Below, one piece after another: positions 11,011 to 37,807 of a stretch of 45,346 bases of DNA (positions are counted from its first letter, which is position 1; every line of letters begins with the position of its first letter). The notes under the pieces are model-generated. The model ran no database searches. It was not told the DNA's origin and worked only from the letters and a program-made list of their open reading frames with translations. The position numbers were made by a program, and so were the translations under genes. Source of the stretch: Ignavibacteriales bacterium (GTDB lineage Bacteria; Bacteroidota; Ignavibacteria; Ignavibacteriales; Ignavibacteriaceae); assembly GCA_012517155.1 (NCBI GenBank), contig JAAYVN010000049.1, positions 1 through 45,346 of the forward strand. Reading direction: 5' to 3'.

Positions 11011-12378
11011 TTAATCCTCACTACTTTTATTTCGAGAAATAGCGAGTCGTTCGATTTTGCCGGTCAGGGTAGTGCGAGGAATTTTTAGGAGACGTGCAGC
11101 ATTTGTAATATTATTATCCGTCTGAAGCAGAGCCCAGTTAATAATATCAGCTTCCTTGGCAGAAATAAATTCATCGAATGAACCGGAGAAGGATGTTTCA
11201 GCCTGAGTCAGATTTACATCTTTTTTTGAAGCCGGAAGATCCAGGAGAGTGAGGTCGATTTCACCTGAATATGAGAGGGCGATCATACGTTCTACAATAT
11301 TTTCAAGTTCCCGGACATTGCCATACCAGTCGTAATCAATAAGTTTCTGCCAAATACCCGGAGTAAGACAACTGAGTTTTTCTTCTGATGAATGTTTACG
11401 GAAAAAGTATTTAACCAGTGGGACGATATCGTCTTTCCTGTCCCTTAGCGGTTTTATTTTCAGAGGAATGATGTTCAATCTATAAAAAAGATCTTCTCTG
11501 AACTTTTTCTCATCCACCTTTTTCTTGAGATCAATTTTTGTGGCGCAAATAATCCGGACATCAAGAGAAAAAACTTCGGATCCGCCAACTCGGGTAAACT
11601 CCCTTTCCTGAATAACACGAAGGAGTTTGACCTGCATGTACATTGGAAAATCATCGATATCATCAAGAAAGATTGTTCCTTTATTTGCGCGTTCAAAGTA
11701 ACCTCGGTGTCTTTTCAGTGCACCCGTAAATGAGCCTTTTTCGTGTCCGAAAAGTTCGCTTTCGAGGAGTGATTCAGGAATACTTGAGCAACTTACAGTG
11801 ACGAAATTTTCGTTTTTACGCGGGCTCAAGTTGTGAAGAGTGCGTGCGACAATTTCCTTTCCGGTACCGCTCTCACCTTCTATTAATATGGTAAAGTCGT
11901 TTTGAGCAATATGACGTATCGTTTCTCGAAGTTTTTGAGTTTCTTTGGAGTTTCCGACAATCGACCGGTCCTGAAGGAAGTGAATTTTATTTTTAAGTTC
12001 TGTATTCTCGGTAATAACGGACTGGAGTTGGCGTATGTTACGTAATACTGCAATTAGTTTTTCTGGAGAAAATGGTTTAGTAAGGTAATCGTATGCCCCC
12101 ATTTTAAGAGCCTGTACTGCAGTCTCGACAGTAGCATAAGCAGTAATTAAAATAACTTTGGAGTCAGGATTTTTAGTTAAGACATGTGAGAGTATATCTA
12201 ATCCGTTGGCGTCGGGAAGTCTGAGATCGGAAATCACGATTTCAGGAAGTTGCGAGTCAAAAATAGAAATGCCTTTTGCTCCTTCATCAGCAGAAAAGAC
12301 CTCAAAGCCTTCCTTTGTAAGAGTATTACCAAGAGAAATGCGGGTTATTTTTTCGTCTTCAATTATGAGTACTTTCAT
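11011..12378 (-). CDS. NtrC/AtoC-type sigma-54-dependent response regulator
   Basis: Three-domain regulator of 455 residues, counted from the ATG at 12376-12378; an in-frame TTG lies 12 bases upstream, but the ATG begins the receiver strand MKVLIIEDE. The receiver has the phospho-acceptor Asp at 51 and a KPF Lys at 101. The AAA+ domain has Walker A GESGTGKE (168-175), the sigma-54 contact loop as GSFTGA (215-220, usually GAFTGA) and Walker B GTIFLDD. A Fis-type helix-turn-helix lies at about 415-450. Such proteins bind upstream dyads and open sigma-54 promoters after phosphorylation. The start overlaps the kinase stop by 20 bp. A matching promoter and tandem dyads lie 2.9 kb away in front of the phosphate operon. 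Confidence 0.95.
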   Translation of the reverse strand: MKVLIIEDEKITRISLGNTLTKEGFEVFSADEGAKGISIFDSQLPEIVISDLRLPDANGLDILSHVLTKNPDSKVILITAYATVETAVQALKMGAYDYLTKPFSPEKLIAVLRNIRQLQSVITENTELKNKIHFLQDRSIVGNSKETQKLRETIRHIAQNDFTILIEGESGTGKEIVARTLHNLSPRKNENFVTVSCSSIPESLLESELFGHEKGSFTGALKRHRGYFERANKGTIFLDDIDDFPMYMQVKLLRVIQEREFTRVGGSEVFSLDVRIICATKIDLKKKVDEKKFREDLFYRLNIIPLKIKPLRDRKDDIVPLVKYFFRKHSSEEKLSCLTPGIWQKLIDYDWYGNVRELENIVERMIALSYSGEIDLTLLDLPASKKDVNLTQAETSFSGSFDEFISAKEADIINWALLQTDNNITNAARLLKIPRTTLTGKIERLAISRNKSSED

Positions 12379-13840
12379 CGGAGTTTCCAATCGGTAAAAT
12401 TACAGTAAAAGTAGTTGAAACACCAGGGGTACTTTCAACTAGTATCTTGCCATTATGGGCGGTTACGATATCCAGCGATGCGGAGAGACCCAGGCCGGTT
12501 CCCACACCCAGTTCTTTAGTGGTATAAAATGGCTCGAAAATATCTTTAAGATTTTCCGGTTTAATCCCTATTCCATTGTCTTTAACGGAGAAAAGGATAT
12601 TTTGCTGATCCATAAAATCGGTACGTATTTCTATAAACCCTTCCGTTTCGATTGCGTCCAGACTATTAAGCAGGAGGTTCATAACTACTTCTTGAATCAA
12701 GTGATAATCTCCGTACATCGAAGGAAGAAGTTCGTTGAGACGTGTACGAATAGTTAATTTTTTGTCTTTAATCCGGTAATCAAAGAGAGTAATGACTTTC
12801 TGGATAGTATCGTTTATATTGATCAAGTAATCGGTTCGTGATTGCTGACGAGCAAAACCAAGAAGTTTTTTGACAATCGTTTCTATATTAGTAATACCCT
12901 CATCAATAAGTGAGAGGTAATCCCGGTTTTGTTGAACGTTCTCCGGTTCGCGATTAATTGCATATAGGCAGGATTTAATACCATTCAATGGATTATTTAT
13001 CTGATGAGCTACACCGGCAGCAAGTCTTCCAATAGAAGCCAGTTTTTCAGCCTGATAAATTTGTCTTTGTGCTTTTTCGAGTTGGAGTTTTGAATTATTC
13101 AGGCGCTCTGTAAGAAGCCTGAAATGATGATATAAAAAACCGACTTCATCATCTTTAACTGGCAGAGAGATATCATAGCCGGAAATAAGATCGATTTTAT
13201 CAATCTCCAGAACTAGTTTATCCAGAGAAGAAGTTAAGCGATTGATAGATATAAAAAGAATTATCAGGACAATAAGAGTAACGGAAACAGTTGCACCAAG
13301 AAGAATAAAGAAAAGTGAGCGCAATTCATTTCTAAGAGGTTCGGCATCAAAACCGATAATTGCGGCACCCCAGAATTTATTAGCAAAATTGAACGGGAGT
13401 TTGACTTCATTCACCCAGCCAAACTTTGAATCATCGACAATCCGAACAATTTCAGCAGATAACTCAACGGGTTCAAACTTTAGATTTTCATCCGAGGCGA
13501 TTTTCTGTTCGGAAGTCAAGAAACGATTAATTATGCGATTGCCGACTTTATCAAAAATCACGACATATTTAACATTGCGCAAACGGTTTATAAAGTTATC
13601 TATGTATGTTTCAAGGATGTTATCCTTCTGAAAAGTGGATTTTTCCTCAAAAATAAGGGCATCGACAACTGTAACTGCAAAAGTATTCGAGATTGAACGG
13701 ACAGTCTCCGATTCGTTATGGATAATGTTTTTCCGCCACTGGAGTAGGAATATCAGTGATATAAGAAGCATTAGGAAAACGATTACGAAGGCGGTAACTC
13801 CAAGAATTTTTGTACTAAGGTGTGATCTGAACTTATTCAT
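12359..13840 (-). CDS. Membrane sensor histidine kinase (NtrB-class partner)
   Basis: Histidine kinase of 493 residues. Two membrane helices (about 12-34 and 176-199) bracket a periplasmic sensor of about 140 residues, followed by a HAMP segment (200-250) and a short coiled coil. The H-box is AAGVAHQINNPLNG with the phospho-His at 279, the N-box is NLLLNSLDA, and the ATP site has DNGIGI (421-426) and GTGLGL (447-452). It overlaps the PhnD-like gene by 4 bp (ATGA) and the response regulator by 20 bp, so the three are translated together. The natural reading is that the PhnD-like protein presents a ligand to its periplasmic domain. The ligand is not visible in the sequence. Confidence 0.95.
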   Translation of the reverse strand: MNKFRSHLSTKILGVTAFVIVFLMLLISLIFLLQWRKNIIHNESETVRSISNTFAVTVVDALIFEEKSTFQKDNILETYIDNFINRLRNVKYVVIFDKVGNRIINRFLTSEQKIASDENLKFEPVELSAEIVRIVDDSKFGWVNEVKLPFNFANKFWGAAIIGFDAEPLRNELRSLFFILLGATVSVTLIVLIILFISINRLTSSLDKLVLEIDKIDLISGYDISLPVKDDEVGFLYHHFRLLTERLNNSKLQLEKAQRQIYQAEKLASIGRLAAGVAHQINNPLNGIKSCLYAINREPENVQQNRDYLSLIDEGITNIETIVKKLLGFARQQSRTDYLININDTIQKVITLFDYRIKDKKLTIRTRLNELLPSMYGDYHLIQEVVMNLLLNSLDAIETEGFIEIRTDFMDQQNILFSVKDNGIGIKPENLKDIFEPFYTTKELGVGTGLGLSASLDIVTAHNGKILVESTPGVSTTFTVILPIGNSDESTHN

Positions 13841-14778
13841 TTAACCCGTCCGCTGATATTACGGATAACCTTATAGTCTGAATCAGATGCGGATTCAAAT
13901 CCAAAAACAAACTCATAATCCCAGTCCTTAGTGATTTGGAGGCGATCGGGATTATTTTTATTTATAACAAGCAATGCTGATTTGATTGCATTAACTACCG
14001 AGTCTGATTTACCCGGGACTGCAACTAGAGGTGAGGTTGGGATAGGATCGGAATAGGCGATAATCCTGAGACCTTTCTGAGAAGCATTTTTAATTAGATA
14101 TTCACGAGTAACACCAACATCCGAGTACCCTTTGAGAACACTGTAAATAACGCTCTGGTGATGTGGAAAATAATCGATAGCAACAAAATCATCTTCACTC
14201 ATTCTAAGCTTGGGAAGTTCGTATTTCAGTAACCAGTTTACGGAAAAAGATTCCTTTGACGGAAGAGCGAGTCGTTTTCCCTTAATCATACTGACAGAAG
14301 AGATATGACTATTCTGTCTTACAAATATAACAGAACGGGAATAGGGGCGGAAGTTTTCATTTAATGGTTTAAGGAAAGGAATTATTCCATGTTCACGGTT
14401 TGCGCGGACGTACACATAAGAACCGAGGAAAGCAGCGGTAACCTCCCCTTTTATTAACATATTTACTGCATCTTGATAATCGCTGCTAAGTTTCAATTCA
14501 AAAAGATAAGGAGTTTTTGATGAAATATAGTCAAGAAGGGGTTGATAACCCCTGAAGATAATGTTTGGAGGATAACGGGAAATGACACCTATATATACAA
14601 CCGGCTTTGAGGAATCCACTGCATTCTTATTGGAAACATGCGTGTGACGATATACCTCACCGGAGATATCCAGCACATAATTATAGAAGACAACTGTAAA
14701 AACAACGGACGTGAGGAGAAGGATAAAAAGCCTTATTTTTGCCTGTCTGGAGAACATTTTGTCTATTATTTTAAACAT
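13837..14778 (-). CDS. PhnD-like phosphate/phosphonate-type solute-binding protein, membrane anchored
   Basis: Periplasmic binding protein of the PhnD/phosphate-phosphite-phosphonate family, 313 residues. An uncleaved-looking N-terminal helix (about 16-37) is followed by a two-lobed fold: VYIGVISRYPP at the first strand, DAVNMLIKGEVTAAFLGSYVYV in the first lobe and DVGVTREYLIK in the second. ABC-transporter PhnD proteins normally sit with PhnC and PhnE; here neither is present. Instead the gene is first in an operon with a kinase and regulator, overlapping the kinase by 4 bp, so it probably acts as a sensor subunit rather than in uptake. The ligand could be phosphate, phosphite, a phosphonate or an unrelated anion. 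Confidence 0.88.
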   Translation of the reverse strand: MFKIIDKMFSRQAKIRLFILLLTSVVFTVVFYNYVLDISGEVYRHTHVSNKNAVDSSKPVVYIGVISRYPPNIIFRGYQPLLDYISSKTPYLFELKLSSDYQDAVNMLIKGEVTAAFLGSYVYVRANREHGIIPFLKPLNENFRPYSRSVIFVRQNSHISSVSMIKGKRLALPSKESFSVNWLLKYELPKLRMSEDDFVAIDYFPHHQSVIYSVLKGYSDVGVTREYLIKNASQKGLRIIAYSDPIPTSPLVAVPGKSDSVVNAIKSALLVINKNNPDRLQITKDWDYEFVFGFESASDSDYKVIRNISGRVK

Positions 14779-14973: not shown

Positions 14974-15171
14974 TTACGATTTAACTAAATTATACGCAAA
15001 AAGAAATAGGAAGACCGCGGAGATTGAAACCACAATGTAAAAGACCTTTGCTACAAATGAGTTTTCTTTTTTCTCTCTTTTAATATTCTTAACCGGATCT
15101 TTTTCGAAGTGATCTGCATCATAATCTCCATCAAGAATATTCCATTTTCCAGTCGGCAATACTTTTCTCAT
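14974..15171 (-). CDS. Small single-pass membrane protein, unknown function
   Basis: Hypothetical protein of 65 residues: an acidic and basic N-terminal half (DGDYDADHFEKD) and one C-terminal membrane helix (about 42-62), giving a tail-anchored topology. The ATG at 15169-15171 has AGGA seven bases upstream, which supports a real gene. It lies between the PhnD-like gene and the plus-strand phosphate operon, on the minus strand, 195 bp upstream of the PhnD gene. I do not recognise a family. Its position would allow it to be the first gene of the signalling operon if transcription crosses the gap. Confidence 0.6.
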   Translation of the reverse strand: MRKVLPTGKWNILDGDYDADHFEKDPVKNIKREKKENSFVAKVFYIVVSISAVFLFLFAYNLVKS

Positions 15172-15263
15172 ACAATCCTATAATTTAACTTGATAATAAG
15201 ACAACTTGCCTTTATACTATTAAGTTCCTTCACTTTGATAATTCTTCAAGAAAGATGCTTCAG

Positions 15264-15303: not shown

Positions 15304-15341
15304 TGACGGAATATGGTCAAAAGTGCGACTAAATTTCGTCA
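15304..15341. promoter_or_regulatory. Tandem dyads, candidate binding sites for the NtrC-type regulator
   Basis: Two inverted repeats share the form GAC-N8-GTC followed by A: TGAC-N8-GTCA at 15304-15319 and CGAC-N8-GTCA at 15326-15341. Their centres (15311.5 and 15333.5) are 22 bp apart, about two helical turns, so both would lie on one face of the DNA. They are centred roughly 105 and 83 bases before the start expected from the downstream sigma-54-like element, the usual distance for upstream activating sequences. The cognate regulator would be the one encoded at 11011-12378; that pairing is inferred. Confidence 0.55.
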
Positions 15342-15390
15342 ACAACAGATCTGAAGTGTTGATTTTTTCCCCAAAACGATATTTTTTTTA

Positions 15391-15406
15391 TGGCACATAG
15401 TTTGAA
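15391..15406 (+). promoter_or_regulatory. Sigma-54-type (-24/-12) promoter candidate for the phosphate operon
   Basis: TGGCACATAGTTTGAA matches the sigma-54 consensus TGGCACR-N4-TTGCW at all positions except GA in place of GC at -12, with correct spacing. The predicted start near 15416 leaves a leader of about 30 bases before the ATG at 15445, which has AGGA eight bases upstream. A sigma-54-dependent regulator is encoded nearby, and tandem dyads lie upstream. I saw no convincing sigma-70 or Bacteroidota-type promoter at a better position. Confidence 0.6.
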
Positions 15407-15444
15407 TTAAATTATTTATTTAATAATCAATAACAGGAAATTCA

Positions 15445-16029
15445 ATGGCAGAAATAATTCCACGATGGGAATGGAGAACATTCCAAAATGATCTAGGGAA
15501 ACCAGAATTAAATATCCGCTCGTATACCGAAGAAAAGACTCGTGAGAGTTCGGAAGTATATATATTATCAGAAGTTAGCATGGACAATACAAAAATACGG
15601 GACGGTTTAATGGATATAAAGACACTTCAGCAGGTTAATGAGAACCGACTTGAACTTTGGTTACCAATTATGAAAGGTCAGTTTCCCTTACCTGCAGCAG
15701 AAATTGAGAAAGTTTTTAAGTGTTTCAGAGTCTCACTTTCAAAGAATCTAAAAGAAGCCTACACTTACGAAGAATACTTGAATGAACTTATTAAACCATC
15801 GAAACTGCTTAAAGCTGTTAATGTTCATAAAAAGAGAACGGGTTTTACAATCGATGGAACGATTGTGGAAATTGCGGAAGTTACCGTTGACGGAAAAGTA
15901 ATCAGAACTGCTGCAGTTGAACATGCAGATCCTGATTTGGTCTTTTCAGTAGTACAAAAGCTGGAACTTGATATGTTCCCCAATATTAACTATCTGCGCG
16001 GATTAAAAAATATGATTGGAATGAAGTAA
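15445..16029 (+). CDS. CYTH-like (triphosphate tunnel fold) protein, divergent
   Basis: Cytoplasmic protein of 194 residues that looks like a divergent CYTH/triphosphate tunnel metalloenzyme. The N-terminal IPRWEWRTF replaces the canonical ExExK. A DNTKIRDGLMDIKTL strand pair, the KKRTGF segment and VEIAEVTVDGKVIRTAAVE with alternating acidic and basic residues recall the tunnel strands. The end PNINYLRGLK is distinctive. It starts the operon and is followed after 10 bp by a canonical CYTH protein. The family assignment rests on pattern and on the neighbour; activity is uncertain because the metal-binding ExExK is not intact. Confidence 0.7.
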   Translation: MAEIIPRWEWRTFQNDLGKPELNIRSYTEEKTRESSEVYILSEVSMDNTKIRDGLMDIKTLQQVNENRLELWLPIMKGQFPLPAAEIEKVFKCFRVSLSKNLKEAYTYEEYLNELIKPSKLLKAVNVHKKRTGFTIDGTIVEIAEVTVDGKVIRTAAVEHADPDLVFSVVQKLELDMFPNINYLRGLKNMIGMK

Positions 16030-16039
16030 GGAGATAAAA

Positions 16040-16504
16040 ATGGGAAAAGAAATAGAACGCAAATTTTTGGTTAAATCAGATGCCTGGAAAAAACTGAGTA
16101 CACCTACTTTCTACAGGCAAGGTTATCTTTCAAGCGTCAAAGAAAGAACTGTTAGAGTAAGGACCGTTGGGACAAAAGGATTTCTGACAATAAAGGGACC
16201 CACGGTTGGAATAACAAGAAGTGAATTTGAATACTCAATACCGGTTGAAGATGCAAATGCAATGCTGGATAATCTATGTGAAAGGCCATTAATAGAAAAA
16301 AACCGTGCGGTTGTTGAGTATAAAGGGTTGAAATGGGAATTAGATGAATTTTTTGGTGATAACGAAGGACTGGTGATCGCAGAGGTTGAACTCAGCGACG
16401 AAAATGTAAAAATTGAAATTCCGGAATGGATTGGAGACGAGGTATCCGGAGATCCGAGGTATTTTAATTCAAATCTAACAAAGAATCCATTCAAAACCTG
16501 GTAA
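16040..16504 (+). CDS. CYTH-domain triphosphatase family protein
   Basis: Canonical small CYTH protein of 154 residues. The N-terminal EIERKFLV gives the ExExK motif (Glu4, Glu6, Lys8). Further tunnel elements are RVRTVGTKGFLTIKGP, SEFEYSIP, KWELDEF and GLVIAEVEL, each with the alternating charges that bind triphosphate and metal. Family members hydrolyse inorganic triphosphate, thiamine triphosphate or short polyphosphate, and a few are adenylate cyclases. AAGGAGATAAAA immediately before the ATG is a strong ribosome-binding site. Being second in an operon with phosphate transporters favours tripolyphosphate or another phosphorus-rich substrate. Confidence 0.92.
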   Translation: MGKEIERKFLVKSDAWKKLSTPTFYRQGYLSSVKERTVRVRTVGTKGFLTIKGPTVGITRSEFEYSIPVEDANAMLDNLCERPLIEKNRAVVEYKGLKWELDEFFGDNEGLVIAEVELSDENVKIEIPEWIGDEVSGDPRYFNSNLTKNPFKTW

Positions 16505-16518
16505 AAATAAACTAGCAA

Positions 16519-18108
16519 TTGGAAAAGGACCAAAATACTAAAAGAACGGATGGAATTACAGCCGAAGAAAACGGGAACGGAAACGGCGAAAATCTGGATG
16601 AACTGTTAGATCTTGACAAGCACAGGTTATCAGTAATTCCCACCAAAAAGTCTACGCCAACCGAAAGATGGATGAAGTACTTGGGATTTCCTGTTGCTAT
16701 AGTATTATTCATCTGGCTATATTATATGCCTGCGCCGGCTGGGCTCTCATCATCAGGACAGGCTGTAATTGCAAGTTTTATATTTGCGCTTGTGCTTTGG
16801 ATCTCAGAAGCAATACCAACCCATGTGACTTCTCTGCTATTAATGGTAATGCTCGTATTCCTGGATGGATGGGGTATGAAAAATGTACTTGGAGTACTGG
16901 GATTTGATGTAATATGGTTGAACGTTATGGCATTTATTCTAAGTTCGCTTCTGGTCAAAACCAATATTGCTAAGAGAATAGCTTTAACCTTAATAGTGAA
17001 ATTTGGACATAGTGCCTTGCCGATGTTACTTGCATTTATCCTGCTTCAACTTGCATTAGCTCCTTTGATTCCGGCTACTGCGGCCAGAACCGTGATAACA
17101 CTGCCAATTATGTTAATAGTTGCGGCAATCTATGGCTCGACCTCAGAAAAGGCAAATAATTTTGGAAGAAATCTTTTTCTACAAAATTTAATAAGTATAA
17201 ACATTTTTTCTTCAGGTTTTATGACCGGTAGTACAGCCAATTTAATAGCCATAGCCTTTATCTTTTCGATGTCCGGACATAAGGTTTACTACACAGATTG
17301 GATGTTTGCAAATTTACCGGTGGTTCTCGCGACGATGTTATTAGCCTGGATATTGGGTCCGAAACTATTATTCAAACTTCAGAAAAAGGAAAATAAGCCA
17401 GCTGTAAAAGGGGGAATTGAAGTGATGAAAAAACAGTTGACCGATATGGGGAAAATGAGCAAACTTGAGATAAAGGGAGCATTAATTTTCGGTTTGGTGA
17501 TTTTTCTGTGGGTAACCGACCGTTTTCATATGAGTATGTTTGGGTTTGAAGTAAATGCAGTTATGGCTGCCATGGTGGGGGGAATTATAACTTTAATGCC
17601 GAAAGTCGGAATACTTAAGTGGAATGAAGCCGATATACCGTGGCATCTGATGTTGTTCAGTGCTGGCGCTTATGCAGGAGGACTTGCATTAAATGATACC
17701 GGAGCTGCAACCTGGGCAGTTCAATCATTATTTACAATAATAAATTTTGATAAGAATGTTAATTTCTGGGTGCTCTATACAGTTGTAATCGCAGTCATGA
17801 TGTATTCACATCTTGTTTTTACTTCAAAAACTATGAGAACTATTATATTAATTCCGTTCATTATTGCCTTGGCGAATGAGTTGGGAATTGACCCAATCGC
17901 TCTTGCACTCCCGGCAGCATTCACAATTGACTGGGTAGTGGGACTGCCAATCAGCGCAAAACCAAATGTTATTCTTTTTACGACAGGGCAGTATTCAGTA
18001 CTGGACAACCTGAAGTATTGTATAATAATAGCTACTATCGGAGTTGTGCTTCTAGTTATAGCCGGGATGACCTGGTTCAGCTTTTTAGGAATAACACCAT
18101 CGCTGTGA
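16519..18108 (+). CDS. DASS/SLC13-family anion:sodium symporter
   Basis: Polytopic transporter of 529 residues with about eleven to twelve helices, of the divalent anion:Na+ symporter family. GSTANLI (about 237-243) and the C-terminal ISAKPNVI correspond to the two substrate/sodium loops usually written SNT. A charged N-terminal tail of about 50 residues (Asn-Gly-rich, ENGNGNGEN) precedes the first helix. The start is TTG at 16519, with an in-frame stop just upstream; an internal ATG at codon 52 is an alternative. DASS members carry dicarboxylates or sulfate, and fungal relatives carry phosphate. Placement between CYTH genes and a PiT permease suggests phosphate or a related anion. Confidence 0.9.
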   Translation: MEKDQNTKRTDGITAEENGNGNGENLDELLDLDKHRLSVIPTKKSTPTERWMKYLGFPVAIVLFIWLYYMPAPAGLSSSGQAVIASFIFALVLWISEAIPTHVTSLLLMVMLVFLDGWGMKNVLGVLGFDVIWLNVMAFILSSLLVKTNIAKRIALTLIVKFGHSALPMLLAFILLQLALAPLIPATAARTVITLPIMLIVAAIYGSTSEKANNFGRNLFLQNLISINIFSSGFMTGSTANLIAIAFIFSMSGHKVYYTDWMFANLPVVLATMLLAWILGPKLLFKLQKKENKPAVKGGIEVMKKQLTDMGKMSKLEIKGALIFGLVIFLWVTDRFHMSMFGFEVNAVMAAMVGGIITLMPKVGILKWNEADIPWHLMLFSAGAYAGGLALNDTGAATWAVQSLFTIINFDKNVNFWVLYTVVIAVMMYSHLVFTSKTMRTIILIPFIIALANELGIDPIALALPAAFTIDWVVGLPISAKPNVILFTTGQYSVLDNLKYCIIIATIGVVLLVIAGMTWFSFLGITPSL

Positions 18109-18112
18109 CGTT

Positions 18113-18835
18113 ATGATTAAGTTAATTTACATATTAGTGATGGTTTTTTTCGCCTCTGCAAGCGGCCAAGTGATTAACCACTTTAAGGAAAAAATTTATC
18201 TTAGTGAAAACGGAAAGACGGAAGTCAATTGGGAAATTGAATATATAAATGAGTCACACGCAGAGAGATTATTATTACCTTGGAATTTTAATGATGCAAA
18301 ACTATCTGATGAAATTGAATACAGTTATGAAAAAGATAAGGGGAAGGAGCTAAAAGGAGAATTAGTAAATATTAACTCGAATTATTTTGTATCAGTGCTT
18401 TTAGACTCTACTCAAACAAGATTAAAACTTGAGATCGAATTCGAGATTGAGGATTTTTTCAATATTTCAGAACAAAAAAAGAAAGATTTTGGTAATTACA
18501 GTATAAAAGTTGTTTTTGCAAACAGTTGTGTTGCTAGAATCAAAAAGTATGAATCATCAATATTTTTGCCTGAAAAATATCTGGTTAGCGCTGTAACAGA
18601 ATCTCTTCCTGAACAAAAATCGGAAGAGTCAATCCCACCATATAAACTCTTCAGAGAAAATGGTAAAAACGGAATAAAACTGACTGCCGAGGAGGTTAAA
18701 CTAGGTGGAAATACATTATTGGAATTCAAATTTAAATCTGAAGAAAAAAGTAATATCTTTTTAATTATTCTGATAGTCTCAGGAATACTTTACTTAGTAT
18801 TTTTCAGAGATATTCTTAAAAGCGGAAAGAAGTAG
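18113..18835 (+). CDS. Unknown exported protein with C-terminal membrane anchor
   Basis: Protein of 240 residues that I do not recognise. It has an N-terminal signal (about 1-18, ending ASGQ), an extracytoplasmic region of about 190 residues rich in charged beta-strand-like segments, and a C-terminal helix (about 214-233) followed by a basic tail, giving a type I membrane topology. It begins four bases after the DASS stop, and its TAG stop overlaps the GTG start of the DUF47 gene, so it is translationally linked to both. It may be an accessory subunit of one of the transporters. Confidence 0.8.
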   Translation: MIKLIYILVMVFFASASGQVINHFKEKIYLSENGKTEVNWEIEYINESHAERLLLPWNFNDAKLSDEIEYSYEKDKGKELKGELVNINSNYFVSVLLDSTQTRLKLEIEFEIEDFFNISEQKKKDFGNYSIKVVFANSCVARIKKYESSIFLPEKYLVSAVTESLPEQKSEESIPPYKLFRENGKNGIKLTAEEVKLGGNTLLEFKFKSEEKSNIFLIILIVSGILYLVFFRDILKSGKK

Positions 18836-19473
18836 TGTTTTTTAATAAAACAAAAAAAATAGAAGCCCAGATCGATGAATATCTTGATTTAGTGGTAAAA
18901 GGAGGACTGGTTTTTAAGCTGGGATTAAGATCATATATTGAAAACAGAGAGGCAGAATTTGAAGGGCATTTAACAGACCTGCGGAATATAGAAGAACGAG
19001 CTGATGAATTAAGAAGAAATATCGAAATAAAGTTATATACTAGAACATTAATCCCGGAGTCAAGGGGCGATGTTTTAGGTCTGTTGGAAAGTTGTGATAA
19101 GGTTCTAAACATAACCACGGAAACATTATTAGAATTCTCCGTTGAGATACCAAAAATTTTGCCCGAACTCTATTCCGGATTTATACAACTTGGTGATATG
19201 GCCGTAAATTGTATTGAAAATACGGTAAGGGGGATAAGATCTTATTTTAAAAATATTGATGCCGTAAGAGATTATATTATTAAGGTGCAATTCTATAAGA
19301 AAGAAACTAATAAAATTGCAGAAGGGATAAAGAGAACTGTTTTCCGCACCGATAATAGATTGAGTGAGAAAATTCACATACGTTATTTTTCATTTCATAT
19401 TGAAAGAATAGCCGAAGAGTCAGAGGATGTATGTGACAGATTGAGCATTGCAACGATTAAAAGGTTTGAATAG
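18835..19473 (+). CDS. DUF47 (PhoU-like) protein
   Basis: All-helical cytoplasmic protein of 212 residues of the DUF47/PhoU-like family, companions of PiT phosphate permeases. The pattern of acidic heptads, including NIEERADELRRNIE (about 50-63) and ERIAEESEDVCDRL near the C-terminus, supplies the metal-binding E/D-rich motifs of the fold. The start is GTG at 18835, overlapping the previous stop (TAGTG), and the stop lies two bases before the permease start. It probably regulates the permease. In the second PiT system of this window, a comparable domain is fused to the permease. Confidence 0.92.
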   Translation: MFFNKTKKIEAQIDEYLDLVVKGGLVFKLGLRSYIENREAEFEGHLTDLRNIEERADELRRNIEIKLYTRTLIPESRGDVLGLLESCDKVLNITTETLLEFSVEIPKILPELYSGFIQLGDMAVNCIENTVRGIRSYFKNIDAVRDYIIKVQFYKKETNKIAEGIKRTVFRTDNRLSEKIHIRYFSFHIERIAEESEDVCDRLSIATIKRFE

Positions 19474-19475
19474 AT

Positions 19476-20948
19476 TTGAGTCTTTCAGTATGGTTTTTTA
19501 TATGCAGCGGTCTTTTTCTAGGTTGGTCATTAGGTGCTAATCATGCAGTAAATGTTTTTGGTACTGCAGTTACTTCGAGAATGCTTAAGTTCAAAACGGC
19601 AGCATTAATAGGAGGAATATTTGCAGTTCTTGGCGCGATATTAAGCGGAGGGGGCACAACAGAGACATTAAACAATCTTGGGGGAATAAATGCTATAGCG
19701 GGAAGTTTTACAGTAGCTCTTGCAGTCGGAATTTCAATAACCTGGATGACAAAAGCCAAGCTACCTGTTTCTACTTCGCAAGCTGTAATAGGCGCGATTA
19801 TAGGTTGGAATTTATTTACTGGAACACCCACTGACTTATCCTCGCTCTTTAAGATATTTATTAGTTGGGTTATAAGTCCTGTAATAGCTGGCATATTTGC
19901 TTTTTTAATTTTCGTTCTGATAAAAAAAACAATATTAAAGCAGCGTATTCACTTGTTATTACTTGACAATTACACAAGAACTGGATTAATTGTAGTAGGT
20001 GCGCTCGCTTCTTATTCGCTGGGCGCAAATAATATAGCGAATGTAATGGGGATGTTTGTATCGGCTTCAGGATTTGAGGATATCTTAACTCCGTACTTTA
20101 CAATTTCCGGTACACAGCAGTTATTTTTTCTGGGAGGTGTTTCGATTGCCGCAGGTATGATGACCTATGGCGAAAAAGTAATGGCAACGGTAGGAAAAGA
20201 TTTATATAAAATCTCCCCCATTACAGGATTTACTATTGTTTTAGCCGAGTTCCTTGTCCTGACAATGTTTACATCAAAGGAACTTGAGAGTGTTCTTATT
20301 AGTTTGAATTTACCAACGATACCGTTAGTGCCTCTATCCACTACCCAGGCATTTATAGGAGCAGTTATCGGAGTTGGTCTGGCAAAAGATCCTGCATCAA
20401 TTAACTTTCGGGTATTCAGGAAAATCACTCTTGGTTGGGTGCTTGCACCATTAATAGCAGGAATAATTTCTTTTGTATCCCTGTTTTTCGTTCAGAATGT
20501 GTTTGAGCAGAAAGTTATTAATCCTGTGCCTTACAGAATCAGTGATTCTGTTCTTGATAAGTTAAAAAGTGATGGTGTGCCTACTCAGTCAATTTTAGAT
20601 ATGAAAGGTATAGAATTCGATAACAAAAAAACATTCAGGAATGAGCTTTTAGAAAGATATGATTTTAATAATTCACAGTTATTTATTCTCTTTAAATATG
20701 CTATAGTAGACTCATTCTATATTGATACTTTAAAGTTAAGCAATGATATCAAAGCGGAATTGACCGCAGCTCAGTTTGAAAAAATTAAATCACTGCAAAA
20801 CAGATCATTCAGTTATAAACACGAGTTTGAGAAGAGTCTATTCCACAGGGATTCCATATGGAACGATACAAGGAACAGATTTTCCGAAAAAGAAACTAAA
20901 GGAAGAAAAAATAAATTGGAACAAATATTCAGAATTAATACATTTTAA
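19476..20948 (+). CDS. PiT-family inorganic phosphate permease with C-terminal soluble extension
   Basis: Phosphate:cation symporter of 490 residues. The two inverted PiT repeats are clear: GANHAVNVFGTAV (20-32) with VSTSQAVIGAIIG (98-110), then GANNIANVMG (183-192) with LSTTQAFIGAVIG. In the usual signature the residue after GAN is Asp; here it is His in the first repeat and Asn in the second. Helices end near residue 355, and a charged helical tail of about 135 residues follows. The start is TTG, two bases after the DUF47 stop, with AAAAGG upstream. The transported ion is probably phosphate, but the altered signature leaves room for another anion or cation. Confidence 0.92.
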   Translation: MSLSVWFFICSGLFLGWSLGANHAVNVFGTAVTSRMLKFKTAALIGGIFAVLGAILSGGGTTETLNNLGGINAIAGSFTVALAVGISITWMTKAKLPVSTSQAVIGAIIGWNLFTGTPTDLSSLFKIFISWVISPVIAGIFAFLIFVLIKKTILKQRIHLLLLDNYTRTGLIVVGALASYSLGANNIANVMGMFVSASGFEDILTPYFTISGTQQLFFLGGVSIAAGMMTYGEKVMATVGKDLYKISPITGFTIVLAEFLVLTMFTSKELESVLISLNLPTIPLVPLSTTQAFIGAVIGVGLAKDPASINFRVFRKITLGWVLAPLIAGIISFVSLFFVQNVFEQKVINPVPYRISDSVLDKLKSDGVPTQSILDMKGIEFDNKKTFRNELLERYDFNNSQLFILFKYAIVDSFYIDTLKLSNDIKAELTAAQFEKIKSLQNRSFSYKHEFEKSLFHRDSIWNDTRNRFSEKETKGRKNKLEQIFRINTF

Positions 20949-20978
20949 ATAACTAATTATTCATTTAATGGAGAAAAC

Positions 20979-22217
20979 ATGAAAAAAATACTTATGCTTC
21001 TTGTAATTTTTGCTTTTGCTGTAAATGCACAGGACTCGAAGGTTCCCGGAGGTGATTATAAAGCTCCCCTGAAATCAGAGATCAGAAATGGTAAAATGAT
21101 TTTTGCCAGTGATGACGGCAAATTTAGCTGGTGGTTTGATGCCAGAATACAGTTTGATGCTGCAATGTATTTCGAGAATAAAAATCCGTTAAGCAACGGT
21201 TCCCTTTTCAGACGAAATACTTTTGCAGTTAAAGCCACTTTGTGGGAGGACTGGCAGGCTGAATGGGATATTGATGTTTCGGAAAATGTACTTGATCTTA
21301 GAGATATGTTCATTAAATATTCATTCCCCGGTACCAATTTATCTCTTAGAGCCGGTAACTTTAAGGAACCAATTGGCATGGAGCGATTGAACAGTTCAAG
21401 GTTACTGACTTTCCTTGAGAGAACAGCTATCACAAATGCTATCGCATTGGGAAGAAGAGCTGGTTTTGAAGCAAGATACTTTACTGATTATGGACAGATA
21501 ACGGCTGCGATAATGGGACATGAATTGGGAACAAAAATCGACAAAGGGACTCAGGACGAGGGTTTCTCAACAAATTTACGTTTGTCCTTAGCACCAATAA
21601 ACAAACATGGATTTAATTTGCATGTTGGTGCAGCTGGCTCATACAAGATCCCGGAAGTAACCGCTGAAGTTGGGAAAAATGGTATAGAAATAAATGCACG
21701 AACTGAATCTTATGTGTTCGATCCTAAATTTTTACATACCGGTGATATTCTTAATGTTAACTACTACAATCGTTATGGACTTGAATTAGCTTTTATTACC
21801 GGACCATTATTAGTATACGGCGAATGGCTTGGTACTTCCATCTACAGATGGGATCTCCCGACAGTGAATTTAAGAGGCGGATATGCAACCGCATCTTATA
21901 TGTTAACTGGTGAAACCCGTTATTATTATGTCGACGAGGGTGAAATTGGTGCCCCGGAAGAACCAAAAAGCAAATGGGGTGCACTTGAACTGGCAGCCAG
22001 ATTCAGTTATACGAACTTAAATGATATACCTGCTGGAATAAAGGGTGGAATGTCGCGTCAGTATATGTTTGGTCTGAACTATTATCCAAATATGAACATA
22101 AAATTGCAATTCAACTATTCAATACTTAACCTTGATGAATTTGCAACAAGCAAGGGAAGACTCAACGGAGATGACGATCATTCTTTTGTACAAATGAGAT
22201 TCCAGGCATCATTATAA
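20979..22217 (+). CDS. OprO/OprP-type phosphate-selective porin
   Basis: Outer-membrane beta-barrel of 412 residues, porin O/P family. It has a signal peptide of about 17 residues (ending VNAQ), then amphipathic strands with the family's recognisable FRRNTFAVKATLWEDWQAE and LRAGNFKEPIGMERL segments, and an aromatic C-terminal residue pattern (HSFVQMRFQASL). OprP is a Pseudomonas porin induced by phosphate starvation. GGAG precedes the ATG at eight bases. It is 30 bp after the PiT gene, the largest gap in the operon so far, and together they form a complete outer- and inner-membrane route for the anion. Confidence 0.92.
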   Translation: MKKILMLLVIFAFAVNAQDSKVPGGDYKAPLKSEIRNGKMIFASDDGKFSWWFDARIQFDAAMYFENKNPLSNGSLFRRNTFAVKATLWEDWQAEWDIDVSENVLDLRDMFIKYSFPGTNLSLRAGNFKEPIGMERLNSSRLLTFLERTAITNAIALGRRAGFEARYFTDYGQITAAIMGHELGTKIDKGTQDEGFSTNLRLSLAPINKHGFNLHVGAAGSYKIPEVTAEVGKNGIEINARTESYVFDPKFLHTGDILNVNYYNRYGLELAFITGPLLVYGEWLGTSIYRWDLPTVNLRGGYATASYMLTGETRYYYVDEGEIGAPEEPKSKWGALELAARFSYTNLNDIPAGIKGGMSRQYMFGLNYYPNMNIKLQFNYSILNLDEFATSKGRLNGDDDHSFVQMRFQASL

Positions 22218-22229
22218 AAAGGAGTTAAT

Positions 22230-23141
22230 ATGAAAAAGAATTTAATTTTAATTTTAGCAATTTTTTCAATAATATTCATGTCGTGCTCACGGGATAATCC
22301 TAATCCGGTTGTTCCACCAGCACCGCCTTCAATCATTGTCAAGATTAATGAAGTCTATTCACGAGGAACAACAGATGCTCCGGATTGGATTGAGATATTC
22401 AACAGTAGTACTATAGCAGTGGATTTATCCGGATACAAGATTTATGATGCGGGTGGATTGACAAGTGCAAAGCCAAAGAAAGAAATACCCGCAGGTACGG
22501 TATTACAGCCAAACAGCTGGTTTGTTATAGTGGTTGATGATACAACCGCTAGTGGGTTTGGACTTTCCTCGGGTGGTGAGACTGTATACTTGGATAATGC
22601 CAGTGGTACTATGATTGATTCGCTTATGTTTCCAGCCTTGGGAACGGATACTTCTTATGGAAGAAAACCTGATGGCAGCAATACATTGGAAAAGCTCTTC
22701 CCTTTTACAAAGGGAACGGCTAACGGTACAGGTAATACTCAAAAGATTATTGTTTTAAACGAAGCTTACAGCCGTGGAACAACAGAAGCTCCGGATTGGG
22801 TGGAAATTTATAATGCTTCTGATTTTTCGGTAGATATTAGTGCTTACAAAATTTATGATCCGGGTGGACAATCAGGTGCAAAGGAAAAGAAGGGGTTCCC
22901 TGCAGGAACAGTAATTCCAGCAAAAGGTTGGTTTGTTATTGTTGTTGATGATGCTTCGGCTAGCGGATTCGGACTTTCAAGTGCTGGCGATCAAATCTGG
23001 CTTGAAGATGGTACGGGTACAAAAATTGATTCTGTTTCTCATCCGGCTATGGATATTAACCAGTCGTATGGTAGATATCCTGACGGTTCGGCTAATTGGA
23101 AGCTTAGTCCTATGAGTCGCGGAACAGCAAATAATCCCTAA
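22230..23141 (+). CDS. Lipoprotein with two lamin-tail domains
   Basis: Lipoprotein of 303 residues, lipobox Cys at 19 (FMSC), followed by a Pro-rich linker (NPVVPPAPP). Two lamin-tail domains (LTD) cover about 36-165 and 172-300. Each starts with a NE-Y-SRGTT-APDW-EI-N motif, has a GYKIYD or AYKIYD strand and a DDT/DDASASGFGLSS stretch, and ends with SYGR-PDGS. LTDs are Ig-like beta-sandwiches used for surface or ligand attachment; in bacteria they are often attached to secreted nucleases and phosphatases. No enzyme domain is present. It is 12 bp after the porin. Its own repeats and those of the third gene downstream are very similar, indicating duplication. Confidence 0.9.
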   Translation: MKKNLILILAIFSIIFMSCSRDNPNPVVPPAPPSIIVKINEVYSRGTTDAPDWIEIFNSSTIAVDLSGYKIYDAGGLTSAKPKKEIPAGTVLQPNSWFVIVVDDTTASGFGLSSGGETVYLDNASGTMIDSLMFPALGTDTSYGRKPDGSNTLEKLFPFTKGTANGTGNTQKIIVLNEAYSRGTTEAPDWVEIYNASDFSVDISAYKIYDPGGQSGAKEKKGFPAGTVIPAKGWFVIVVDDASASGFGLSSAGDQIWLEDGTGTKIDSVSHPAMDINQSYGRYPDGSANWKLSPMSRGTANNP

Positions 23142-23145
23142 AAGG

Positions 23146-23925
23146 ATGAATTTAAGTTCAGAACATACTTACTCTGGTATCCGGTTCATTATCCTTGTTG
23201 CATCATTATTGCTAATTGCTGGTTGCAACAGAGATGAACCGGGTACTATTCCCCCACCAGGCCCTGTTGTAAAGGGACTTGAGATAGTTTCCACACTTTC
23301 AATAAGTGTTTCGGAACCGTCAGCGCTTGCATTTAACCATATTGATTCAACTCTATACACAGTATCGGACGGAAACGCCGCTTATTACAAATTTAATTTT
23401 AACGGAATGATACTTGCAACAATTCCTATCTCGGGTTCAGATCTTGAGGGTATTGTTTTATCTCAAAACTGTGATACGATCTATGTGGTGCAGGAAGCAA
23501 AGCAACTTGTAACCGCCTTTAGACCCGATGGCACATTGCTTAATTCATTTCCCGTGAAAGTAGCAACAAGCATTAGCTCAAGTCTTGAAGGTATCACCAT
23601 TGATAATCACGGTAATCTGGTTGTAATTAATGAAAAGGACCCAATGATGGTTCTTAAATTTAATAAAACCTCAGAAATATTTAGAAAAACGCTATCTTAT
23701 TCTTTAGATATTTCCGATATTTGTTATGACAAATTAACTAATTGTTTTTGGATAGTTAGTGATGAATCAAGAACCGTATTAAAACTATCTGAGACATTTG
23801 AGTTGATAGCCACCTATACCATTAATGTTCCCAAAGCAGAAGGAATTCTGGTTTTAGGAGATAAGATTTACATAGTTAGTGATTCAGAATCGAAAATGTA
23901 CGTTTTTAAGAAACCATCAAATTAA
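23146..23925 (+). CDS. SdiA-regulated-type beta-propeller lipoprotein
   Basis: Lipoprotein of 259 residues, lipobox Cys at 27 (LIAGC), with a Pro-rich linker. The body is a beta-propeller of the SdiA-regulated (YjiK-like) family: repeated blades such as EPSALAFNHIDSTLYTVSD, GSDLEGIVLSQNCDTIYVV and SSLEGITIDNHGNLVVINE carry Asp and Glu at the central pore. The family is a structural relative of phytase-type propellers, but catalytic function is not established, and I see no diagnostic phytase residues. It starts four bases after the LTD lipoprotein, so the two are translated together. A role in phosphate ester binding or hydrolysis is a hypothesis. Confidence 0.85.
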   Translation: MNLSSEHTYSGIRFIILVASLLLIAGCNRDEPGTIPPPGPVVKGLEIVSTLSISVSEPSALAFNHIDSTLYTVSDGNAAYYKFNFNGMILATIPISGSDLEGIVLSQNCDTIYVVQEAKQLVTAFRPDGTLLNSFPVKVATSISSSLEGITIDNHGNLVVINEKDPMMVLKFNKTSEIFRKTLSYSLDISDICYDKLTNCFWIVSDESRTVLKLSETFELIATYTINVPKAEGILVLGDKIYIVSDSESKMYVFKKPSN

Positions 23926-23950
23926 TATTTATTTACTTAGGAGCACAGAT

Positions 23951-25093
23951 ATGAAGATTTCATACTTTTTAACTTTTTTAATTGCTGTAATTATCAGCAA
24001 TGTTTCTTTATCACAGGTAGTGATGAATGAGGCTTATTCACGTGGAATCCCAACAGATCCTGATTGGATTGAGATTTTCAATAATTCAGAAACGTCTCTG
24101 GATATAACCGGATATAAAATTTACGACAGTGGTGGACTAGCCGGCACGAAACCGAAAAAGCTGTTCCCTGCAGGTTCAGTTATACCTGCAAAAGGATTTC
24201 TTCTAATCGTAACAGACGATAGCGACGCAAGCGGATTTGGCATATCATCAGGTGGTGAAACCGTATGGCTCGAAAATGCTTCGGGAACCTTAATAGACAG
24301 TTTGGTAATCATGGCTATGTCTGAAACACAGTCGTGTAGTAGATATCCTGACGGCGGAACTGCTGTATTGGTTGATTTAATAACCAAGGGTATTACAAAC
24401 AATCGGGTTCTTATGAATGAAACTTATTCACGAGGAGTTCCAACCGATCCTGACTGGATTGAGATATTTAATCCGTCTTCTGCTTCGCTTGACATAACTG
24501 GTTATAAAATCTATGATAATGGTGGACAAGCAGGAACAAAACCAAAAAAATTATTTCCAGCAGGTTCTATCATCCCCTCAAAAGGATTCTTAGTTATTGT
24601 CACCGATGATGCTGATGCAAGTGGATTTGGTATTTCTTCAGGCGGCGAGAAAGTTTGGTTTGAAGATGCGAATGGTGTATTAATTGACAGCGTACAAATT
24701 GCTGCAATGGATACTAATCAATCTTTCGGTAGAAATCCTGACGGAGCATTTGCATGGATGTTGTTAAGTCCAAGAACCCCTGGTTCCTCGAACGTACTAA
24801 CTGATTTGGAGGATGAGGTTTCAGAAGTGAAACAATTCAAGCTTAACCAGAACTACCCGAATCCCTTCAATCCGACAACTACAGTAAGTTATTCATTGAA
24901 TGTTGGCAGCTTTGTTTCGCTAAAGGTTTTTGATATCCTGGGAAATGAAGTATTAAACTTGTTTAACAAACAACAGGATGCTGGAGATTACAAGATTATA
25001 TTTGACGGCAAAGGTCTATCCAGTGGAGTATATATTGTACGTTTAGAAGCCGGTACAAATGTTAACATAATTAAAATGAATCTAATAAAGTAA
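23951..25093 (+). CDS. T9SS-secreted protein with two lamin-tail domains
   Basis: Secreted protein of 380 residues. The ATG at 23951 (GGAG nine bases upstream) begins a good signal peptide (about 1-21); a longer frame reaches back to 23879 but lacks a signal. Two lamin-tail domains follow (about 24-150 and 155-280), close relatives of those in the LTD lipoprotein, with the shared NE-YSRG-PTDPDWIEIFN start. The C-terminus is a type IX sorting domain (about 300-380) with LNQNYPNPFNP and GLSSGVYIVRLEAG. It is the last gene before the terminator and is probably anchored to the cell surface. No catalytic residues are seen. Confidence 0.9.
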   Translation: MKISYFLTFLIAVIISNVSLSQVVMNEAYSRGIPTDPDWIEIFNNSETSLDITGYKIYDSGGLAGTKPKKLFPAGSVIPAKGFLLIVTDDSDASGFGISSGGETVWLENASGTLIDSLVIMAMSETQSCSRYPDGGTAVLVDLITKGITNNRVLMNETYSRGVPTDPDWIEIFNPSSASLDITGYKIYDNGGQAGTKPKKLFPAGSIIPSKGFLVIVTDDADASGFGISSGGEKVWFEDANGVLIDSVQIAAMDTNQSFGRNPDGAFAWMLLSPRTPGSSNVLTDLEDEVSEVKQFKLNQNYPNPFNPTTTVSYSLNVGSFVSLKVFDILGNEVLNLFNKQQDAGDYKIIFDGKGLSSGVYIVRLEAGTNVNIIKMNLIK

Positions 25094-35527: not shown

Positions 35528-37807
35528 TTAGTTCTCCTCCTCATCGTTTCCGTTTTCATCTGTTTTTTTAGAGGCTATTAGGTTGTTCTTTAAGGCATTG
35601 GTGAGGTTAACGCTGTGCGTCATTATATTTTCACAATCAGAAATCACTTCAAGGAAAAGCAGACTGTTTTTTGTACTGTCTATATTCTTTTTTATTCTGT
35701 CAACTTGACCTTTATCAAGTTTTTGAATTAATTTCCTGAATTCAGGTAATTTGTCTTGTGTTAAATCATATTTTAAAAGTTTATCCGTTACCAGTATTTC
35801 AGTTTCTACTTTGAACACATCTTCCATAAATTTCCGCATATCTTTCAGTTCCTCGGACTGTACCTTCCCGGGAGAGCTGTGATTATTGTCAATATGCTCA
35901 TAACATCTTGCGGTAAGCGCCTTCAGATTTGAAGAGATACCTTTTAAAGAGGCAACGAGTTTTCCGTATCTTCGCTCCTCCTTAATCTCATCTTCTTTCA
36001 GTATTCTTACCTCCTTGAATAAATTAGACATTAATAAGTTCGAAAACTTGCCTAATTGCTTTGCATCCTTTACTAGATTTTTTAATGAATTTCTGTCTCC
36101 ATCAATAAGTCCCTTAATACACTCCTTAACTATATTGTTGGTCCCCTCAATATACTTCGCCATTTCTGCGGCGTTGGTTTTATATATCTCAACACTCGTT
36201 GTGTTTTCATCTATTTTTGTTACATTCTCATATTCACTCTCTTCCTTAACTCTTTTTTTATGAATAATATGAGTACGGTAAATTGTGAATAATCCTAATA
36301 TTACCAATGCGATCACGGCATATAATTTACCGAAGTATAATACGGTGACGAAAACCCCGGAGATTAAGGAAGCAAATAATGCGGTAAAAAACCATCCCCC
36401 TATAACTGTAAGTACTCCGTTAACCCTGTAAACAGCACTCTCGCGCCCCCAGGACCTGTCCGAAAGTGATGTCCCCATTGCCACCATGAATGTCACATAA
36501 GTTGTAGAGAGCGGAAGTTTAAGTGATGTGCCAAATGAGATCAGCGCTGCTGATACCATCAAATTAACAGAAGCCCTTAGTAAATCAAATGCCGGCGGCT
36601 CCTCCCCGGGTAATGTTTTTACTACCGCCTTGTTTAAATCAAATCTTTTGTTTACCCAGGTGTGCATTGATACCGGAGTTACTTTTTTAACCAACTCAAC
36701 AAGTGAGATCATCATTCTTACCACCTGTCTGGATAAAGTCGATGATTCAAATCTCTCGAATCCTTCCCCTTGCCTTCCTAAATTTACTTCTGTTTTTATT
36801 ACTGTTCGGGATTTTTTTGATATCCATAATGTTACCATCATTACTATCCCCGAACCTATAAGGAATAAACTATTAAGATGGACCGGTTCTAATAAAGCTT
36901 CCATCGTCATTCCCATAAATCCTGGATTCCCTTGTGCAATAAGGAAAGAACTGTAACCTGCTAAAGGAACTCCTATAAAATTAACTAGATCATTTGCCGC
37001 AAATGCTAGCGCCAGGGCAAATGTTCCCATTAAAACTATCGGTTTAAGTATGTTTACCCTTGTGAATAATGTAAGGAATTGAAGTAACACACTCCAGAAT
37101 AAAAAACTATAAATTAAAATATCTAATGTATGTGTCTGTATCCACTCAATATTCGCTGCACTTAAAAAAGTAGCTCCTTTAGCCCCTTTTAATAAAATAA
37201 AATAAGTTATGAATGTTAATGCAAATCCGCCGAAAAGTCCCCCATACCTTTTTATCTTGCTTTCATAATCAAATGTAAATGTCATTCTTACAAAATATTG
37301 TATTAACCCGCCTACGCTGAATGCAATTACCACTGATATTAAAATTCCAAAAATTATTGCAAGTGCTTTGGCTGTGTTGATATATTCTAAAAGATTGGAT
37401 ATTGGCTCGCCGGTAGACGCTATTTTTATTATTGACATGCCTACAGCAGCTCCTATCAAGCCAAATACTAGCGATACCGTTGTTGAGGTGGGCAATCCGT
37501 AGGTATTAAAAAGATCCAGTAGTAATACATCGGTCAGCATAACTGCCAGAAAAATAATCATGACTTCAGGGAAAATAAACATTTCAGGATTAAATATTCC
37601 CTTTCTTGCTACTTCCATCATTCCGCTCGAAAAAAGCACTCCAATAAAAACACCTAAACTTGCTACTGTCAGCACTACCTTTAGTGGAGCTGCTTTCGAA
37701 CCTATCGATGAATTCATGAAGTTTACGGCATCGTTTGCAACCCCTACTGTTAAATCCGATACAGCTAAGATGAATAATACTATCACTATAATCAGAAATA
37801 ATTCCAT
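35528..37807 (-). CDS. PiT-family phosphate permease fused to PhoU-like domain
   Basis: Phosphate permease of 759 residues. The first PiT repeat carries the canonical Asp in GVANDAVNFMNSSIGS (22-37), and the second contains AANDLVNFIGVPLAG. About a dozen helices span residues 1-515. A long helical cytoplasmic domain (about 515-759) follows, resembling PhoU/DUF47. It is therefore a fused version of the DUF47-PiT pair at 18.8-20.9 kb, and the two systems may differ in affinity or regulation. It is on its own transcription unit, 102 bp from its upstream neighbour, and shows no sigma-54-like element. Confidence 0.92.
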   Translation of the reverse strand: MELFLIIVIVLFILAVSDLTVGVANDAVNFMNSSIGSKAAPLKVVLTVASLGVFIGVLFSSGMMEVARKGIFNPEMFIFPEVMIIFLAVMLTDVLLLDLFNTYGLPTSTTVSLVFGLIGAAVGMSIIKIASTGEPISNLLEYINTAKALAIIFGILISVVIAFSVGGLIQYFVRMTFTFDYESKIKRYGGLFGGFALTFITYFILLKGAKGATFLSAANIEWIQTHTLDILIYSFLFWSVLLQFLTLFTRVNILKPIVLMGTFALALAFAANDLVNFIGVPLAGYSSFLIAQGNPGFMGMTMEALLEPVHLNSLFLIGSGIVMMVTLWISKKSRTVIKTEVNLGRQGEGFERFESSTLSRQVVRMMISLVELVKKVTPVSMHTWVNKRFDLNKAVVKTLPGEEPPAFDLLRASVNLMVSAALISFGTSLKLPLSTTYVTFMVAMGTSLSDRSWGRESAVYRVNGVLTVIGGWFFTALFASLISGVFVTVLYFGKLYAVIALVILGLFTIYRTHIIHKKRVKEESEYENVTKIDENTTSVEIYKTNAAEMAKYIEGTNNIVKECIKGLIDGDRNSLKNLVKDAKQLGKFSNLLMSNLFKEVRILKEDEIKEERRYGKLVASLKGISSNLKALTARCYEHIDNNHSSPGKVQSEELKDMRKFMEDVFKVETEILVTDKLLKYDLTQDKLPEFRKLIQKLDKGQVDRIKKNIDSTKNSLLFLEVISDCENIMTHSVNLTNALKNNLIASKKTDENGNDEEEN

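Follow-up and report, generated by a model that had tools for sequence, protein, structure and literature searches.

Which regulator controls the phosphate-type uptake operon at 15445–25093 of this DNA, and to which signal does it respond? According to the usual description, bacteria control phosphate through PhoBR, which reads the flux via Pst. A sequence-only reading of the window, i.e. the whole stretch of 45,346 nucleotides analyzed here, had proposed a sigma-54 promoter with NtrC-type sites in front of the operon. With both motifs conserved in relatives, this is still the best reading of the region. We consider it probable that the operon is controlled from 15304–15406 by a sigma-54 phosphate (oxyanion) switch of three components, similar to AioXSR.

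Operon and adjoining regulatory genes

Ten genes lie in tight series on the plus strand (15445–25093). The first, CYT1 (15445–16029), gave no Pfam or NCBIfam match. Its model (pLDDT 92.8) has a predicted CYTH/triphosphate-tunnel-like fold, with 24 Foldseek hits at E ≤0.001 (best 6.8e-6, TM-scores of about 0.3–0.6), which appear to be CYTH/TTM proteins. Ten of the 16 other aligned CYT1 sequences were 74–80% identical and six 36–40%. It is followed by genes for a CYTH-domain protein (PF01928, 16040–16504), a DASS/SLC13-type sodium-coupled anion symporter (16519–18108), a protein without family match (18113–18835), a PhoU_div (DUF47) protein (18835–19473), a PiT-family inorganic phosphate transporter (PHO4, 19476–20948), and an OprP-type phosphate-selective porin O/P protein (20979–22217). 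Three genes named by eye as lamin-tail-like, beta-propeller-like, and lamin-tail-like complete the series (22230–25093), and other loci contain relatives of the first two. "Phosphate operon" is a fair name on the grounds of these protein families, not of experiment. The nine operon proteins scanned included no member of the ars, molybdo-oxidase, ptx, or phn enzyme families, and an Rfam search gave no match. Counting CYT1 by its predicted fold, the operon is headed by two CYTH-type proteins. Elsewhere in the window, a second, larger membrane protein encoded on the minus strand (35528–37807) appears PiT-like by eye.

The regulatory module comprises three genes on the minus strand, including a PhnD-type sensor, and as such did not figure in the sequence-only reading. 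The NtrC-type response regulator (11011–12378; PF00072, PF00158, and PF02954) consists of a receiver, a sigma-54 AAA+ domain with a GSFTGA loop, and a Fis-type helix-turn-helix. GAFTGA or GSFTGA was present in 12 of 13 aligned regulators, and the locus L033 has GAFTNA. The sensor histidine kinase (12359–13840) and the PhnD-type periplasmic binding protein (PF12974, 13837–14778) complete the module; the N-terminal helix of the latter is likely a membrane anchor. The sensor gene adjoins the kinase and regulator genes, not ABC transporter genes. Sigma-54 itself is encoded in the genome (rpoN; PF04552, C6:6071–6544, E 2.3e-58), and the protein contains ARRTVAKYRE, the RpoN box.

A 65-codon open reading frame with one hydrophobic stretch, noted by eye, is located between the sensor gene and the promoter region (14974–15171, minus strand). 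The gap between sensor gene and operon measures 666 bp in the window and 266–381 bp in 11 of 13 measured relatives, the others having 662 (L040) and 823 bp (L041). Given the larger gap, this reading frame may be an insertion in the window.

The sensor and its ligand

Compared with solved structures, the sensor family profile scored highest with ArrX (96 bits, E 2e-26), followed by PtxB (81), AioX (51), and PhnD (48). Similarly, the sensor model (pLDDT 85.6) had its best Foldseek match in ArrX 6x8w, a Y138A mutant (E 6.5e-23). ArrX of Chrysiogenes arsenatis (PDB 6x6b, 6x8w) is the closest solved protein in both sequence and fold, with an identity of approximately 25% to the window sensor. A search of plasmids with the sensor matched 686 records, and the 30 listed among these were 24–29% identical.

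Pocket positions were derived from the AioX residues listed in the available text of PMC5908839 and were mapped via the ArrX alignment, not directly to AioX. Y101, S179, H207, and D220 of the sensor were invariant in 14 sensors, and S177 and Y146 were kept in most of them, with Phe at 146 in several. The position of Cys106, which binds arsenite in AioX, is a glycine (Gly119) in all 14, and the window sensor protein has no cysteine anywhere. The ligand is most likely phosphate or a close oxyanion.

It is possible, if somewhat doubtful, that the same switch responds to arsenate, arsenite, phosphite, or phosphonate; the operon would then serve inducible uptake or oxyanion discrimination. The nearest solved sensor, ArrX, prefers arsenate about 150-fold (Kd 1 µM, compared to 150 µM for phosphate; excerpts of PMC5908839), and PtxB, a phosphite protein, ranks second in the profile comparison. 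The glycine at the Cys106 position and the cysteine-free window sensor argue against such a ligand; arsenite is the only ligand bound by AioX and ArxX according to the same excerpts (PMC5908839). The uptake genes are furthermore of phosphate type, and the operon proteins scanned are free of the enzyme families named above. As the cysteine is missing and no arsenic molybdoenzyme was found among the nine operon proteins scanned, the window sensor was not filed with the arsenic sensors.

The predicted control region and its conservation

The two GAC-N8-GTC dyads and the -24/-12 element described from the sequence alone were found in place. Dyad 1 (TGAC-N8-GTCA, 15304–15319; core GACGGAATATGGTC, 15305–15318) and dyad 2 (CGAC-N8-GTCA, 15326–15341; core GACTAAATTTCGTC, 15327–15340), neither assigned to a strand, are predicted response-regulator sites that start 22 bp apart. 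They fit the family dyad at 8/10 and 9/10 positions, dyad 1 being the weaker copy. The predicted sigma-54 element TGGCACATAGTTTGAA follows on the plus strand (15391–15406; GG-N10-GA, TGGCAC-N5-TTGA), with GG at 15392–15393, ten bases between, and the -12 G at 15404. In the published consensus, mrNrYTGGCACG-N4-TTGCWNNw, the -24 GG and the -12 GC are ten bases apart (PMC2725144, in excerpt). The window element has the GG and the G, and an A in place of the -12 C, which counts against the promoter. The first ATG of the operon, at 15445, lies 3' of the element. Assuming a start 12 nt past the -12 G, near 15416, the dyad centers would be at about -104 and -82, which is the usual range for NtrC-type activator sites.

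The earlier estimate of one six-base dyad per 4,096 positions ignored composition and had to be dropped: dinucleotide shuffles gave a mean of 5.1 GAC-N8-GTC dyads per window, compared to two present, both of them here. TGGCACATAGTTTGAA is the sole -24/-12 match in the window with at most one mismatch; with at most two mismatches, 23 matches were found vs. 24.2 by chance, i.e. no enrichment. The tandem pair dyad-N8-dyad occurs a single time in the genome of 3,285,886 bases, at this promoter. Rarity within the window alone is insufficient, and the decisive support comes from the relatives.

A search of 146 relatives, the window genome counted, detected CYT1 in 17, and 17 regions were read (the window and L027–L042). 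In 14 of these regions, sensor gene and operon are divergent; L042 begins at a contig end, and the regions L037 and L038 are without regulator genes. When species genomes were searched with the sensor profile, 21 named loci were obtained, 11 of which were duplicates of known ones. Here, 18 had the divergent sensor gene, and the remaining three were cut by contig ends. At phylum level, the sensor was detected at E 1e-40 in 11 of 395 genomes, and it was divergent in six of six regions. The three sets of loci overlap. The 21 named loci are labeled Ignavibacteriaceae, Ignavibacteriales, Ignavibacteria, Melioribacteraceae, Chlorobiota, Bacteroidetes/Bacteroidota, Balneolales, Candidatus Krumholzibacteriota, and, in one case, plain "bacterium".

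Fifteen upstream regions served to define the motifs; the sensor gene is visible in 14, and the other, L042, is cut by the contig end. In these 15, the dyad GACGA-N4-TCGTC was present at a score of at least 8/10 in 15 of 15 regions, with 30 sites (dinucleotide shuffles: mean 0.8, maximum 5). A sigma-54 score of at least 8/10 within the last 120 nt was reached by 13 of 15 regions and by 0.5% of mononucleotide-shuffled regions; L027 and L033 scored 7. The same thresholds were applied to 12 further loci that played no part in setting the motif. Duplicates (the 11 of 21 named loci, L102, and L103) were counted once, the close relatives L065 and L066 as two, and L068 and L079 were excluded because their promoter side is off the contig (dyads are present in both). 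Ten of these 12 loci showed the dyad (shuffle mean 1.7, maximum 7), L075 and L106 being the misses, and ten the sigma-54 element (shuffle mean 0.9, maximum 4), with L070 and L104 both at 7. L106 has GGC-type dyads. Absence of the dyads from relatives would have spoken against the sequence-only reading; they are instead conserved. That the motifs in window DNA arose by chance, from AT-rich intergenic sequence fitting both, is a reading taken up below.

The window and most relatives have a pair of tandem palindromes ahead of a -24/-12 element. In L077, a locus from another phylum (Krumholzibacteriota), GGCGAAATTTCGCC is followed after 22 bp by a second, weaker copy and then by GGGGCATGGGGCTTGC, while L027 has a single clear dyad near the promoter. 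The 22-bp phased spacing proposed from the sequence is thus correct for the window and is not fixed in relatives, where successive dyads start 18, 19, 20, or 22 bp apart, or 40–41 bp apart with a degenerate middle copy. The distance from the dyads to the -24 box also differs among species. Similarly, the form GAC-N8-GTC was recovered, and its six bases proved too short a description: the family dyad is GRCGA-N4-TCGYC.

The whole layout, a dyad of at least 8 sited 40–170 nt before a sigma-54 score of at least 8, was scanned in 29 loci (1,061,246 strand positions). Twenty of the 28 matches were at this promoter and in operon direction, covering 20 of the 27 promoter-bearing loci; eight were elsewhere, two of these in the same gap, facing the regulator genes. 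Across 27 promoters, the -12 G and A at +4 were found in all, T at +11 in 26, and C or T at +3 in 24 and 3, respectively, columns that were favored by choosing elements by best score and requiring GG. The base after the -12 G was A in 10, C in 9, G in 4, and T in 4. The one departure from the consensus that the sequence-only reading had pointed out, A for C at this base, is therefore ordinary among these promoters. The relaxed second -12 base may reflect this promoter set or the RpoN of these lineages.

Homologous upstream regions without a divergent sensor gene were kept as negatives: L037, L038, and L030b, the last being an additional gene copy in a regulator-bearing genome. None of the three had a dyad of at least 7 or a -24/-12 score of at least 8. 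In the genomes G080 and G121, listed as 100% complete, a genome-wide search at E 1e-10 detected no sensor gene, and both motifs are missing before CYT1. These genomes retain homologues of CYT1, the CYTH protein, the DASS symporter, and the porin; PiT was not seen in these regions. In L039, L040, and L041, CYT1 is similarly distant (36–40% identity), yet the motifs are present. In the genome G031, a second CYT1-CYTH pair lies past the response regulator (L030:6737–7795), with an upstream region free of dyads and of a -24/-12 element.

The dyads could instead serve another regulator, with a sigma-70 promoter as the main promoter of the operon and the adjacent regulator acting elsewhere. We regard this as improbable. 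A sigma-70-like pair, TTGATA-17-TATACT, is indeed found in the same gap (15190–15218), and such pairs are no commoner in the window than chance (37 vs. 37.1 expected). Dyads and -24/-12 elements co-occur beside the regulator genes and are both gone in the sensor-less L037 and L038, and the genome has no other copy of the tandem pair. Furthermore, regulator and dyad vary together. After the conserved PR-[TSG]-T-[LF] of the recognition helix, 11 loci have Arg and 14 have T, N, S, K, or V, and G at the second dyad base was found in 23 of 38 half-sites in the Arg loci vs. 2 of 44 in the rest; L041 and L079 have the Arg and no G half-sites. A tree for which the helix was left out traces the covariation to approximately one or two independent changes and leaves several forks open, so that the covariation supports a regulator-dyad contact without proving it. 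A chance origin of the motifs is very improbable, as their conservation in the defining and the further loci is far above that in shuffles, even if the window alone shows no enrichment of either motif.

Targets beyond this promoter were also considered. A wider regulon could not be called, since dyads with at most three mismatches occur genome-wide at 18 places, compared to 32 for a control pattern. A perfect dyad at C138:25219 was rejected as a second target because it is located inside an open reading frame and no nearby -24/-12 score exceeds 7/10. In ten genomes, perfect dyads occur at eight places, four at this promoter (G006, G101, and G113) and four away from it, and the reversed control pattern outnumbers the dyad in several genomes.

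An element resembling TTGGWAY...TTTTT, pointing towards the sensor gene, was observed in 17 loci (L027–L036, L039, L063–L066, L074, and L104) with a mean score of 6.41, compared to 4.78 (sd 0.34) in mononucleotide shuffles. It does not stand out in the window (best 6/10). In the relatives, it is perhaps a second promoter, weak and sigma-54-like, from which the regulator genes are transcribed. In strain NT-26, the aioXSR operon is driven from RpoD and RpoE2 promoters (PMC6011840, in excerpt).

The proposed switch and known systems

In the favored scheme, the operon at 15445–25093 would be transcribed from a sigma-54-dependent promoter whose control region is 15304–15406. The PhnD-type protein (13837–14778) would bind phosphate or a close oxyanion and cue the kinase, the ligand-bound form turning the operon either on or off, and the kinase would phosphorylate the NtrC-type regulator (11011–12378). 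This regulator would occupy both dyads and, once phosphorylated, remodel the RpoN-RNA polymerase at 15391–15406. The scheme corresponds to that of AioXSR, except that its target is a phosphate uptake operon and not arsenite oxidase.

The likeness to AioXSR and ArxXSR lies in the trio of PhnD-type sensor, histidine kinase, and NtrC/AtoC-type regulator (excerpts of PMC3834237, PMC5908839, and PMC6011840). The promoter layout is shared as well: AioXSR-controlled promoters have tandem palindromes before a -24/-12 element, and all 12 aioBA operons with aioXSR are reported to have two palindromes, which are absent without aioXSR (PMC3834237, as far as its text was available). In contrast, the target here is a phosphate-uptake operon and not a molybdoenzyme, the arsenite-binding cysteine of AioX is replaced by glycine, and the loci are labeled Ignavibacteriales, Melioribacteraceae, Chlorobiota, Balneolales, Bacteroidota, and Krumholzibacteriota. 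The putative ArxR site is unlike the dyad described here, and ArrX differs in keeping the cysteine and in its partner ArrR, which is CitB-like and has no AAA+ domain (both from partial text of PMC5908839). No account of such a system was found in the portions of the open-licence PMC literature at hand. Whether these loci represent a PhoBR/Pst-independent pathway, in which the PhnD-type protein reads external phosphate, shared by several lineages including Krumholzibacteriota and with a sister or ancestral-type function to AioX, ArxX, and ArrX, is in our estimate an even question. If so, they would provide a second logic for external phosphate sensing, suggest how Pst-less bacteria regulate uptake, and constitute a possible evolutionary source or sister of the arsenic sensors.

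The Pho regulon (PhoBR, PstSCAB-PhoU) also governs phosphate transport and porin genes. PhoB is an OmpR-type regulator that acts with sigma-70, whereas the regulator adjoining this operon is NtrC-type with sigma-54. The genome (listed as 99.65% complete) gave no hits for PstC or PhoU, for which the controls were positive in 14 of 14 and 13 of 14 genomes. A PstC- and PhoU-negative genome thus has, next to a PiT-type operon with a predicted sigma-54 promoter, a sensor of the type known for arsenic oxyanions. PstC status was rejected as a divider of genomes with and without the module. Strong PstC matches were obtained in seven of 14 module genomes (G006, G007, G016, G031, G039, G072, and G122), intermediate ones in G101 and G113, and weak or none in G000, G025, G061, G112, and G138, so the module is not simply a Pst replacement. 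The PhoB model gave 40 matches in the genome, all under its cut-off of 296.2, which is weak evidence for absence as only two of 14 control genomes pass this cut-off. The best match (212.8 bits) is an OmpR-type regulator at C100, beside a kinase, and PhoBR-like control may therefore operate elsewhere in the genome.
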